Positions 1-33,135 of a stretch of 33,207 nt of DNA are shown here, piece by piece (the stretch's first letter is position 1; each line of letters begins with the position of its first letter). The stretch is from Herpetosiphonaceae bacterium (lineage in GTDB: Bacteria > Chloroflexota > Chloroflexia > Chloroflexales > Kallotenuaceae). Under the pieces are notes generated by a model, which worked only from the letters and a program-made list of their open reading frames with translations, was not told where the DNA came from and did not search any database. The DNA is taken from NCBI GenBank assembly GCA_036374795.1, contig DASUTC010000081.1, forward strand, positions 1 through 33,207. Reading direction: 5' to 3'. A program made the translations under genes and the position numbers.

Positions 1-5100
<5,100 letters not shown>

Positions 5101-7665: not shown

Positions 7666-9735
<2,070 letters not shown>

Positions 9736-9811: not shown

Positions 9812-9886
9812 GATATGAGGCTGGAGGAAGAAGCGAGATGAGGGCCACCCGCCCCGGCCTGACGACCCCTGTTCGTTCGCCCCCGC

Positions 9887-16442: not shown

Positions 16443-16517
16443 ACAGAGAATAAACCAACAAAGGAACAAAGGAGCAAGGACGAGATTACAGAACTCGAAA
16501 CTTGAAACTTGAAACTG
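16443..16517 (+). repeat. Intergenic heptad repeat copy
   Basis: The order is AACAAAGGAACAAAGGAGCAAGG then CTCGAAACTTGAAACTTGAAAC, i.e. the two 7-bp modules of the family without the GC core. It occupies nearly the whole gap between the phosphatase and the glycosyltransferase. Confidence 0.8.
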
Positions 16518-17671: not shown

Positions 17672-17757
17672 AACGTTGCTCGTTGTTCTTCTTTTGTTCT
17701 TTTGTTTCCTTGTTCCTTTGTTCCTTTGCCCAAAGGGCACCCGCCCGGCCTGTCGGC
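17672..17757 (-). repeat. Intergenic heptad repeat copy, reverse orientation
   Basis: On the minus strand it reads GC core (GGGTGCCCTTTGGGC), then AAAGGAACAAAGGAACAAGG and AACAAAAGAAC. It is in the opposite orientation to both flanking plus-strand genes, unlike most copies. The GC core is itself a perfect dyad (GGGTGCCC/GGGCACCC-like) and could act as a weak hairpin. Confidence 0.75.
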
Positions 17758-22713: not shown

Positions 22714-22830
22714 GTTGCGAGTTGCGAGTTTCAAGTTTCAAGTTCCAGCCCCGTCCCTTTGTTCTTTGTTTATCGACAGGCCCTCACCCGGCATGGCACC
22801 CGGTCTGGCGCCCGCCCTTCCCCATCCGCG
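22714..22830 (-). repeat. Intergenic heptad repeat copy with GC core
   Basis: On the minus strand: GC core with CGGGTGCCATGCCGGGTG, then AACAAAGAACAAAGG, then GGAACTTGAAACTTGAAACTC. The module order matches the other copies. The rest of the 22689-22919 gap (22831-22919) holds only GC-rich short dyads (e.g. GGCCTGACGGCC). Confidence 0.8.
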
Positions 22831-22919
22831 CGGGTCCCGTTCCCGCTCGTGTGCGATAGGAGCGGGGAGGAATTGGTGGGGGACATCCCACACCTCCGGC
22901 CTGACGGCCCTTTCGTTCT

Positions 22920-24631: not shown

Positions 24632-26022
24632 TCGGTCGACTCCTTTGAGATCGGCAGCACCGGAGCATGCAGCAGCCGCTCCCCGATGTGGCCCGTCGCG
24701 GCGCGCGCCTGCTGAAGAATCGCCTCGGCCTCGTCGATCAGCAGATGCCCGCGCTGGTAGAGCACGCGCCCGTCGATCATCGTCAGACAGACATCGGTGC
24801 AGCGGCAGACATAGACCAGGAGATCGTACGGATTATCGATGCCCATACACGCCAGCGGGTCAAGCGCGACCGCGATCAGATCGGCGGACTTGCCAGGCTC
24901 AAGCGAGCCGATCTGATCGTCCAGGCCAAGCGCCGCCGCTCCGCTCAACGTCGCCGCGCGCACAATCCACTCCGATGCCAGCTCCGGCAGGTGCGGCTGC
25001 GCCATGCGGCTGGCAAAGGCCAGCAGGTGCATCTCGTCGAACAGATCGTAGCGGCTGCTGGTCGCGGCGCTGTCCGTGCCCAGGCAAACCTCGACGCCGC
25101 CCGCGAGCAGATTATGCACAGGCGCAAGGCCGTTGCCCATGCGCAGATTCGTATGCGGGCAGAGCACCACGGAGCTGCCAGCCTGCCGCAGCAGCTCGAT
25201 GTCTCGATCGTCGAGCTGCGCGCAGTGGACCGCGCCGGTTCGGCTCGTCAGCAGATCCGCCTGATAGGCCGCGTCGACCGGGCTGCTCACGGCGTCGTTG
25301 TTCTCGTAGAACAGCCGCAGGCCCTCGCCCACCTCGGTGTAGGCTCGTGGCACCCGCTTGAAAAAATCCAGCTCCTCGCGCAGCTCGGCCAGATGGATGA
25401 ACACCCTGAGATCGCGCCGCGCTGCGTAGCGGCTGACCTCGCGCAGCCGTTCGGGCGCGAGGCTGTACACGGTATGCGGCATCAGACCAACCGAGAGCAG
25501 GCCGTCCTGCTGCGGCCCGGCGATCTCCGCCAGCAGCGCGTCGAGCGTTTCTAGCTGCGGTGTTTTGCGCTTGATGCTCAGCAGGCCCATCGTGCGCAGG
25601 CCCAGGGCAGCGCTCAGACGCGGCGTGTACAGGTAATGCCGGTCGACGACGGTGGCAACCGTGGTGATGCCAAAGCGGATCGATTCGAGCGCGCCGAAGG
25701 CGACCGCCGCGCGGGTATCTTCTTCGGTCAGCACTTGATGCTTGATCAGGCTGATCTGCTTCAAGGTCCAGAAGGCATCGCTGAAATCGAGTCGACCGCG
25801 CAGCAGGCTATAGTTCAAATGGCAGTGGGCGTTGACCAGGCCCGGCATGAGGATCGCCGGGCCGTACTCGCGCACCTCGGCACCGAGCTGCGGCGCGGAG
25901 TCTTGCGCGCCGACAAACACGATCCGGCTGCCTTCGACGACAACGCAGCCGCGCCGGATCGGAGGCGTGGCGATCGGCAGCACCCAATCTGCATTTAACT
26001 GAAGACGACCCGTGCGATCCAT
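24628..26022 (-). CDS. Amidohydrolase (TRZ/ATZ / SAH-deaminase-like)
   Basis: A 464-residue metal-dependent hydrolase of the cytosine-deaminase-like amidohydrolase group. Metal ligands are visible: HCH (His66, His68) in VNAHCHLNYSLLRG, His210 in FIHLAE, His266 in AVHCAQ and Asp317 in LGTDS. PHTNLRMGNG and the C-terminal LGSLEPGKSADLIAV are typical. Family members deaminate or dechlorinate ring nitrogen compounds or hydrolyse guanidino/amidine groups. The open frame extends to 26118, but those 32 residues are translated repeat. ATG 26022 has GGAGGA about 13 nt upstream and starts at the fold boundary. It is coupled to the downstream kinase gene. In an amino-sugar-type pathway it could deacetylate or deaminate an intermediate; this is inference. 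Confidence 0.9.
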   Translation of the reverse strand: MDRTGRLQLNADWVLPIATPPIRRGCVVVEGSRIVFVGAQDSAPQLGAEVREYGPAILMPGLVNAHCHLNYSLLRGRLDFSDAFWTLKQISLIKHQVLTEEDTRAAVAFGALESIRFGITTVATVVDRHYLYTPRLSAALGLRTMGLLSIKRKTPQLETLDALLAEIAGPQQDGLLSVGLMPHTVYSLAPERLREVSRYAARRDLRVFIHLAELREELDFFKRVPRAYTEVGEGLRLFYENNDAVSSPVDAAYQADLLTSRTGAVHCAQLDDRDIELLRQAGSSVVLCPHTNLRMGNGLAPVHNLLAGGVEVCLGTDSAATSSRYDLFDEMHLLAFASRMAQPHLPELASEWIVRAATLSGAAALGLDDQIGSLEPGKSADLIAVALDPLACMGIDNPYDLLVYVCRCTDVCLTMIDGRVLYQRGHLLIDEAEAILQQARAATGHIGERLLHAPVLPISKESTE

Positions 26023-26039: not shown

Positions 26040-26152
26040 CAGAGAACAACGAAACCGGGTGCCATGCGGGTGCCAGACCCAAAGGGTACCCCGGCATGGG
26101 CGCCCGGCGCACAAACATCGTATCCTTTGTTCTTTGTTTCGCTGTTCTCGCT
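26040..26152. repeat. Repeat copy with terminal inverted repeats (MITE-like)
   Basis: About 110 bp bounded by GAGAACAACGAAAC (26042-26055) and its near-perfect inverse GTTTCGCTGTTCTC (26136-26149, 13 of 14). Inside are GGGTGCC words, a CCCAAAGGG dyad and the complementary CCCCGGCATGGGCGCCCGG segment, so much of it can fold back. The left 33 bp match the inverse of 31116-31147 with one base missing there. It lies in the gap upstream of the amidohydrolase. Confidence 0.75.
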
Positions 26153-26166
26153 ATGAGCCCCAGCCG

Positions 26167-27291
26167 TCAGGCATCGGCCAGCAGCTCAAGCCGATTTTTA
26201 GAGCGCAGCCGCTCGCGCATCGTGCCGCGCCAGCGGTCGGCGGTCGTGCCCGACGGCTTCAGGCTTGAAAGCCAATCCTCGCTCACGGCATCCTGCATCG
26301 CAAGCACCTCCACCATATCGGTGCCAAACGCGCGATCGATATGCGCCAGCACCCAGATCACCGGCTGCACGATGTTATAGCTGCGCAGCAGATCGGCGAA
26401 TGCCTGCGTGTGCAGCTCAGGATGCCGCTGCCAGAACAAGATGATGTCGGCGCATTTGATCAGGTTCACGTCGGCGTTGGTGCTCCACAGCCTGACAAAC
26501 CAGGCCTCGCGGAAGAAATGCAGGATCGTAAAAAGGAAGTGGTACGACGGCCCGAAGACCGGCAGTTGCACATCGTCGATCTGCGGGATCGGCTGGTAGG
26601 CTCGCGTCTGAAAGGCGTCGTCCAGCGGAATCTCGTACTCGCTATTGGTCCAGGTCATCGAAAACGCAAAATCGACGACCGTCGTCGGCACGAAGCGATC
26701 GTTATTCAGCTTGATCAGCTTGGGCAGATGATCAGGACTCATCTGGTAGATCAGTTTCTCCTTGCGCGTGACGGGCAGGGCGCGACCTTTGGCCCAGTCG
26801 CGCCGTCCCTCGGCGTAGCCAAGGCCGCCCATGATCTCGACGATGCGATCTTTGTAGTCGTGCTTCAGCATGAAATCAAGATCGCCCATGTAGCGCGCGC
26901 CCGATCCGTGGTAGATCGTCGACTCGAACGCGATGCCCTTGGTCGCGACGATCGGGATCGACGCCTCGGCAAAGGCTGTGACGATCCGCGCGGCCTCGCG
27001 GCGGTAGATCTCGATCTCATACAGGCCCAGGCGCATCGCGTTGATCATCGTATGCTTGATGTAGCGCGGCACTTCCTCGATCATATCGGTCTGCTCAAGA
27101 TGATACGTGAGCAGCCGCAGAGTCTTATGTCGAATCGCCTGCTCCAGCAGCTCGCCCCAGTTGAGCATCGGCATTTTGACGAGCTGCTCGAAGAGCTGCC
27201 GCTCCTCAGGCGTAGCAAGTCCTCTACAGGATAGCTCAAGCAGCGCCCATTCGGGGCCGAGCTGAAGATCCGGTACGTATGCCTGTCCCAT
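26167..27291 (-). CDS. Nucleotidyltransferase-fold protein (NTP_transf_5-like) A
   Basis: A 374-residue protein resembling the uncharacterised nucleotidyltransferase family PF14907. The core reads IPIVATKGIAFESTIYHGSGARYMGDLDFML, with Lys118 and the metal-binding pair Asp137/Asp139 (GDLDF), preceded by a helical N-terminal domain. A YHFLFTILHFFREAW-type helix lies further on, as in MNT-like folds. Family members are predicted to transfer a nucleotide to a small molecule or protein and often sit in polysaccharide, exosortase-related or modified-peptide loci. ATG 27291 has GAGGAG about 9 nt upstream. It lies 38 bp after the DegT aminotransferase. A second, divergent family member lies two genes upstream. 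No substrate can be assigned. Confidence 0.75.
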   Translation of the reverse strand: MGQAYVPDLQLGPEWALLELSCRGLATPEERQLFEQLVKMPMLNWGELLEQAIRHKTLRLLTYHLEQTDMIEEVPRYIKHTMINAMRLGLYEIEIYRREAARIVTAFAEASIPIVATKGIAFESTIYHGSGARYMGDLDFMLKHDYKDRIVEIMGGLGYAEGRRDWAKGRALPVTRKEKLIYQMSPDHLPKLIKLNNDRFVPTTVVDFAFSMTWTNSEYEIPLDDAFQTRAYQPIPQIDDVQLPVFGPSYHFLFTILHFFREAWFVRLWSTNADVNLIKCADIILFWQRHPELHTQAFADLLRSYNIVQPVIWVLAHIDRAFGTDMVEVLAMQDAVSEDWLSSLKPSGTTADRWRGTMRERLRSKNRLELLADA

Positions 27292-29881: not shown

Positions 29882-29983
29882 TTCCTCGTTTCGAGCTCCA
29901 AGTTCAACGTTGTTCGTCCTCGGTTCTTGGTTCTTAGTTCTCTCTTTTTGTTCTGTTGTTCTTTGTTCTGCGCCCCCGGCTAG
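29882..29983 (-). repeat. Intergenic heptad repeat copy
   Basis: On the minus strand: GGGGGCGCAG core remnant, GAACAAAGAACAACAGAAC, AACTAAGAACCAAGAACC, then GTTGAACTTGGAGCTCGAAAC. The module order is the same as in other copies. It separates the HPr-kinase-like gene from nucleotidyltransferase B. Confidence 0.8.
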
Positions 29984-30985: not shown

Positions 30986-31152
30986 CGCTCCCGGTTTCGA
31001 GCTTCGAGTTTCAAGTTTCAAGTTTCAAGTTTCGAGCTTCCTTAGTTCTTGGTTCTCAGCGCTTGGTTCTTCCCTTGTTCCTTTATTCATTTGCTCTCTG
31101 TGCGCCCTCTGGGCATGGCACCCGCATGGCACCCGGTTCGTTGTTCTTTCGT
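30986..31152 (-). repeat. Longest, most complete intergenic repeat copy
   Basis: On the minus strand the full module order is seen: AGAACAACGAACCGGGTGCC-type box, GC core (GCCCAGAGGGCGCAC), AAAGGAACAAGGGAAGAACC, GAGAACCAAGAACT, then four GAAACTT units and CTCGAAGCTCGAAACCG. It is the best reference copy for defining the family. Confidence 0.85.
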
Positions 31153-33052: not shown

Positions 33053-33135
33053 AGGTTTCAAGTTTCAAGTTCCAGGTTTCAAGTTCGAGGCTTCGAGTTC
33101 GTTCAACTTTGAACTTTGAACTTTGAACTCTCGTC
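33053..33135 (-). repeat. Intergenic heptad repeat copy
   Basis: On the minus strand: three GTTCAAA units, then CTCGAAGCCTCGAACTTG and GAAACTTGAAACCTGG. Only the 7-bp tandem module is present, without the GC core. It fills the gap between the right-edge gene and the isomerase. Confidence 0.8.

Follow-up and report, generated by a model that had tools for sequence, protein, structure and literature searches.

The 113-base sequence at positions 26040 to 26152 of the window (the whole 33,207-nucleotide stretch of DNA analyzed here) is, with a probability that we put at roughly 0.55, a member of a lineage-specific, non-autonomous mosaic repeat that sits behind genes and has spread through replication errors at hairpins or through some other factor; our confidence in the spreading step is lower than in the mosaic-repeat reading as a whole. 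The mobile piece would be a hairpin unit of 26 to 33 bases that lodges in degenerate 7-base arrays, often in copies of itself, and the window copy is one nested palindrome flanked by arrays on opposite strands, an arrangement that the sequence-only reading took for terminal inverted repeats (TIRs). Such mosaics settle directly behind stop codons, presumably because this is the place of least harm, and turn over between species. Their units may spread by slippage during replication and by template switching at hairpins, or through another factor, and array pairs that have an A-rich left and a U-rich right arm may persist as weak two-way transcription stops.

Direct comparison bore out two observations of the sequence-only reading. 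The end at 26042-26055 (GAGAACAACGAAAC) and the reverse complement of 26136-26149 (GAGAACAGCGAAAC) are identical at 13 of 14 positions, and the left 33 bp match the inverted segment 31116-31147 bar one base, the single gap in the 33-base alignment indicating a one-base deletion and no substitution. The window contains one pair of inverted 14-mers that match at 13 of 14 positions with a spacing of 70 to 119 bases, and ten first-order shuffles of it contained 6, 3, 0, 0, 3, 0, 1, 2, 2, and 0 (mean, 1.7); the 14-base ends thus occur at chance frequency, and the "TIR" by itself is without significance. The interior is different: folded as single-stranded DNA, the 113 bases gave a z score of -3.74, and none of 200 shuffles folded equally well. 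The earlier statement that the repeat is not due to chance therefore holds for the interior, with its fold and its dispersed matches, but not for the ends alone.

The element occupies almost the whole gap between two minus-strand genes, an amidohydrolase gene (PF01979) on the left, with its start codon placed at 26022, and a nucleotidyltransferase-like gene (PF14907) on the right, ending at 26167, to which relatives give only partial matches (24 to 34% identity). Its right arm lies 18 bases past the palindrome and is a distinct heptamer array. As the flanks consist of heptamers, a 2-base AC repeat, taken as a putative target-site duplication, is indistinguishable from array sequence. No Rfam family matched at gathering score in the window. 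Table 1 lists the components of the element and the other mosaics. The 31-kb mosaic, read on the minus strand, has the order A, palindrome, A, T. The mosaic at 3736-3823 falls in a loop of an adenylation domain encoded by the nonribosomal peptide synthetase (NRPS) gene that opens the window. Related heptamer and palindrome pieces were also observed, in frame, in the equivalent loops of two other NRPS modules (466-563 and about 9148-9190), modules 2 and 3 having GAACGGGCGCCCT.TGGGCACACAACG in common.

Table 1. Coordinates of repeat components and mosaics (window positions unless a genome and contig are given)
Coordinates	Strand	Feature	Remark
26042..26055	+	Left flank, two A-type (GAAC-) 7-base units, GAGAACA ACGAAAC	Left "TIR" of the sequence-only reading
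26056..26106	.	51-base GC-rich palindrome CGGGTGCCATG[CGGGTGCCAGACCCAAAGGGTACCCCGG]CATGGGCGCCCG, hairpin unit nested in another	Nesting from catalogue alignments
26107..26112	+	Right-end word GCGCAC (GCRCAC)	Common to many copies and congener copies
26125..26149	-	Opposed A-type heptamer array, TTTGTTC direction	Includes right "TIR" 26136-26149
31105..31138	-	Second palindrome copy, 34 bases	91% to 26053-26086
31005..31080	-	T-type (GAAACTTG) then A-type arrays	Mosaic of the 31-kb palindrome
29895..29968	-	Intergenic mosaic, T- then A- arrays	
22725..22802	-	Intergenic mosaic, T-, A-, Q- (GGCCCTCACC), palindrome	
17681..17743	-	Intergenic mosaic, A- array and palindrome	
16464..16515	+	Intergenic mosaic, A+ then T+	
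33055..33128	.	Intergenic arrays, T- then T+	
3736..3823	+	Mosaic A+, GGGCGCCCTCTGGGCACAC palindrome, A+, T+	In frame within NRPS gene
G000:C3:35430-35464, G001:C151:456-490, G001:C380:1855-1890, G002:C67:18760-18793, G003:C98:56452-56485		GAACAAAGG...CCTTTGTTC hairpin sites	

In the genome from which the window derives (G000; 7.75 Mb in 373 contigs), the 113-base sequence matched at least 43 places by BLAST, a lower bound because 40 of 274 candidates were scored. The best other match among those listed, on contig C51, is 98% identical over 63 bases. The copy 5 kb away ranks 22nd of the 43 matches listed, tied with its neighbours (E = 1.5e-9), so that about 20 of the at least 43 places match better and the proposed recent copying or conversion between the 26-kb and 31-kb sites loses its special standing. 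With up to 3 mismatches allowed, the genome contains 121 sites of the hairpin core GGGTGCCATGCCCAGAGGGC and none of the reversed pattern. Among the 60 genomes searched, G000 included, matches were confined to G000 and the congener G001.

We catalogued 58 distinct copies from 1.11 Mb of the genome plus 80 further short loci. The simplest units, of about 26 to 33 bases, read GAAC/CGGGTGCCATGCCCARAGGGCRCCCGGCGCAC/MAAGAAC or, in another version, AGACCC...GGGT, with unit junctions GAAC/CGGGTGCC on the left and ...CCCGGCRCAC/MAAGAAC on the right. GAAC stands at an end of 27 catalogued copies, GCRCAC at an end of 20, and one of each in 16. In G001, judged by eye, the AGACCC...GGGT version carries left GAAC at 4 loci and right GCGCACAAAAGAAC at 3 of those. 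An inner stem pair covaries between versions (G-C in 62, A-T in 16, other in 3; n = 81), and the larger copies, that of the window included, consist of one unit within the arms of another (by eye).

These data leave little of the earlier proposal of a miniature inverted-repeat transposable element (MITE), i.e., a non-autonomous transposon with 14-base TIRs moved by a transposase recognizing GAGAACANCGAAAC. The element is a dispersed, non-coding repeat of about 110 bases with ends that match at 13 of 14 positions, as that proposal would have it, but the ends are not common to the copies, and membership fails for this reason: not one of the 58 copies has inward-pointing GAAC at both palindrome ends. 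The "TIR" recurs exactly at a single other place in 7.7 Mb, within a heptamer mosaic (C18:8631); when the variable base is written as N, 3 genome sites match it exactly, two of which are the arms of the window copy; and at up to one mismatch it has 33 sites compared to 17 for the reversed control. In addition, the ends alone are at chance level and the loops between opposed arrays are unrelated (see below). No transposase with matching ends was seen in the part of the genome's insertion sequences examined. We therefore give the MITE explanation almost no credence. What survives of the suggested non-autonomous mobile or recombination-borne origin is a dispersed, non-coding, non-autonomous repeat; MITE-type ends and special copying are not supported, nor, among the insertion sequences examined, is a matching transposase.

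A second transposition-based explanation, which we consider unlikely, is a REP- or REPIN-like element inserted 3' of the tetranucleotide GAAC without duplication by a Y1 (HUH) transposase since lost. REP, BIME, and REPIN elements are described in PMC3116915 as short extragenic palindromes, present at high copy number, that form inverted pairs with a spacer. The elements studied here are likewise small extragenic palindromes at high copy number, their left tetranucleotide GAAC is fixed, hairpins whose spacer varies arise from their opposed arrays, as they do in REPINs, and excision of a unit plus one AC leaves the flanking heptamers in register (by eye). Membership fails, however, because of the tag and the transposase. 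Most REPs are sorted by GTAG and CGTC tags (PMC3733652), and neither tag occurs within 8 bases of either end in any of the 58 copies. A profile search for Y1_Tnp (PF01797) gave no intact transposase but one 35-position fragment with a stop; as it does not lie near heptamer arrays, we rejected this remnant as the mover. Enzyme negatives here and below refer to profile searches on draft genomes, of which G001 and G048 (another family) are 80 to 84% complete.

The palindromes are surrounded by imperfect 7-base repeats of an A type, GAACNAA (GAACAAA, GAACCAA, GAACTAA), and a T type, GAAACTTG and its kin. Further array words are Q (GGTGAGGGCC) and X (CCGTCAGGCCGGG), both GC rich, and B, the CCCTCTCC hairpin. 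With these words, picked after part of the data had been viewed, 167 of 648 gaps in our sample of the genome contain at least two. Most often the elements follow one another as A, then palindrome or B, then Q and T, and A precedes T in 54 of the 56 chains having both on one strand. Orientation relative to genes has a weak or unclear bias: A>T composites are in the GAAC sense in 24 cases and antisense in 10 (P = 0.024, uncorrected for the several tests), and the corresponding ratio for A arrays and co-directional genes is 29:16 (P = 0.07). As a separate observation, word X contains CGTC and is often first in a mosaic (window sites 9853-9864, 17744-17755, and 22899-22907); it is possibly a separate REP-like repeat.

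The surprise of the analysis is the strict strand polarity of the heptamer arrays. Neighbouring opposed A arrays up to 40 bases apart are convergent in 22 cases and divergent in none in the sample; for 66 kb of G001 the corresponding counts are 10 and 0. When the limit is raised to 150 bases, the sample has 36 convergent and 3 divergent pairs, and a single A-A+ neighbour pair lies within 60 bases. Genome-wide, G000 has 58 occurrences of GAACAAAG N2-30 CTTTGTTC (13 pairs falling in the sample, and nested overlaps being counted twice), G001 has 22, and G048 has 8, while the reverse order, CTTTGTTC N2-30 GAACAAAG, is absent from all three. The 60-genome totals are 103 convergent and 2 reverse, where some of the convergent cases are simple terminator-like hairpins in genomes that have few arrays or none and the reverse-order pairs, one each in G009 and G059, lie at hairpins unlike arrays. 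The edges of whole chains follow a similar rule (left edge A+ or T-, right edge A- or T+): both edges fit in 112 of 141 chains and both break it in none, the 29 mixed chains speaking neither for nor against; in G001, 11 of 12 fit, none break it, and 1 is mixed. The polarity rule is not general to every heptamer-rich genome, since 400 kb of G010 (another family) contain one opposed pair and this has the reverse order. The G010 arrays were also seen to differ in style, GAACTGA being mixed with GAACCAA, and the 400 kb read contain no palindromes.

If arms arose by template copying, an arm should be more similar to its partner than to arms of other pairs. This is not the case, a point against our mosaic-repeat reading. 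In opposed pairs the own arm was the best match in 1 of 31, and the mean similarity score was 14.7 for own and 14.5 for other arms, the total score being reached in 1,738 of 5,000 permutations. We therefore rejected a foldback mechanism that copies one arm into its partner, paired arms resembling each other no more than foreign arms, and the near-perfect match within the "TIR" of the window copy is an exception. The loops between opposed arrays are unrelated (a 7-mer shared in 9 of 231 pairs; shuffles, mean 3.6, maximum 9). Separately, many A+A- loops in the 1.11 Mb contain TTAA, CTAA, or GTTAG, which may reflect adjacent genes whose stop codons fall there.

With genes called by a crude codon-usage finder rather than taken from annotation, the mosaics lie at gene 3' ends. 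For co-directional chains the median distance from the upstream stop codon is 11 bases, and that to the next start is 74; 74 of 110 begin within 20 bases of the stop, compared to 36 expected from uniform placement (maximum of 49 in 2,000 simulations). Opposed A pairs number 12 in 102 convergent, 27 in 425 co-directional, and 3 in 121 divergent gaps, an enrichment of A+A- pairs in convergent over divergent gaps (P = 0.007).

This location, the enrichment between convergent over divergent genes, the polarity counts (58:0, 22:0, and 8:0), and the plain hairpins of like polarity, e.g., GAACAAAGCCAGCGAAGCTGGCTTTGTTC, in relatives with few or no arrays all favor selection of the pairs as two-way terminators, GAACAAAG-hairpin-CTTTGTTC. 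An A-rich 5' arm and a U-rich 3' arm on both strands would explain why only the convergent order is kept. Selection of this kind accounts for A+A- pairs but not for A standing before T; it also leaves the T-T+ pairs and the GAAC-sense bias of A>T composites unexplained, and the reverse order is missing even where neutrality would be expected. Moreover, the window copy has no canonical terminator: a terminator scanner found none there, a GC stem with an immediate T run being absent, and gave little excess elsewhere (7 found, 5.0 expected). We regard terminator selection as rather doubtful. Separately, four congeners, including ones nearly without arrays, were observed to share a hairpin, GAACAAAGG...CCTTTGTTC, whose loops are similar (Table 1); it is perhaps a conserved terminator or operator.

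The edge rule would instead follow from a polar process in which 7-base units are added to 3' ends of DNA where it is broken or where a hairpin tip has opened. Strands of GAACAAA or CAAGTTTC would then extend inward on either side and be joined across a short filler or a palindrome, yielding the edge fits (112 of 141, none reversed at both), non-mirroring arms, and unrelated loops. If true, this would amount to telomere-like end healing in a bacterium in which neither a reverse transcriptase nor Ku was detected. Such end addition accounts for the edge rule yet lacks an enzyme, and we regard it as distinctly unlikely. Profile RVT_1, present in 37 of the 60 genomes, was found in none of G000, G001, and G048, so that a reverse transcriptase was rejected as the agent; Ku was found in 0 of 60 genomes, and Ku end joining was rejected likewise. 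The polarity rule is the part of our mosaic-repeat reading that is without a good explanation.

The mosaics differ between congeners. In a 20-kb syntenic block (C345:40001-60000) with counterparts in G001, G002, G003, and G005, we compared 15 gaps by eye, 6 of which contain mosaics in G000. Five of the six have a G001 ortholog; two of these are mosaic free and three hold a different mosaic. The two mosaic-free gaps measure 68 bases compared to 306 in G000 and 101 compared to 250, with the promoter side conserved. Ten orthologous gaps in G002, G003, and G005 have no mosaic. At C265:17018 and its counterpart in G001 (C970), a palindrome lies at the corresponding place in opposite orientation (by eye). 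The orthologous genes of the nearest congener are 75 to 85% identical, and the empty sites are therefore not base precise; no insertion event was caught in this comparison, which counts against our reading. Given this fast turnover, behind genes and with pieces inside NRPS genes, the mosaics may shape gene ends and protein loops.

The literature that we searched, mostly outside subscription papers, gives no description of such mosaics in this lineage. Tandem 7-base repeats that are dispersed, imperfect, and in many cases intergenic have been described with other units: TAACTGA in Beggiatoaceae and cyanobacteria (PMC4679880), GGGAATC in Xanthomonas (PMC4692102), and GATAGRA in Chloroflexus aurantiacus (PMC6749651). 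The TAACTGA repeats of the Maribeggiatoa genome lie mainly ahead of start codons (PMC4679880), in contrast to the position of the present mosaics behind stop codons. The accessible text of these reports describes no palindrome module for any of the three. REP, BIME, and REPIN elements differ in their GTAG/CGTC tag and intact Y1 transposase, both absent here, and in that the arms here are 7-base arrays. Rickettsia palindromic elements are palindromic repeats, some of them in frame inside genes; they are alike in their in-frame genic palindromes but are longer and of other sequence and lineage.

Heptamer repeats with embedded hairpins are an old puzzle of cyanobacteria, and no agent is known to write them. 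Elhai et al. in 2008 reportedly found small dispersed repeats (SDRs) in Nostoc, tiny hairpins in tandem heptamers, nested in themselves, with compensatory stem changes; they are said to be restricted to one clade and to have no obvious enzyme, and RNA intermediates were reportedly proposed. This is the closest known system. The present units also lie inside tandem heptamers, 27 of 58 copies having GAAC immediately at an end, and they share the nested copies, the covarying stem, and the restriction to a clade. They differ in phylum, the present host being probably a member of the Chloroflexota, in sequence, in slightly longer units, and in the heptamer sequence; there is no RVT_1 match here to go with RNA intermediates, and strand polarity of the arrays is not known to have been reported there. 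That this architecture recurs, with a strict strand rule, in another and unrelated lineage leaves fewer possible mechanisms, narrowed also by the lack of a detected transposase, reverse transcriptase, or Ku, and makes them testable.
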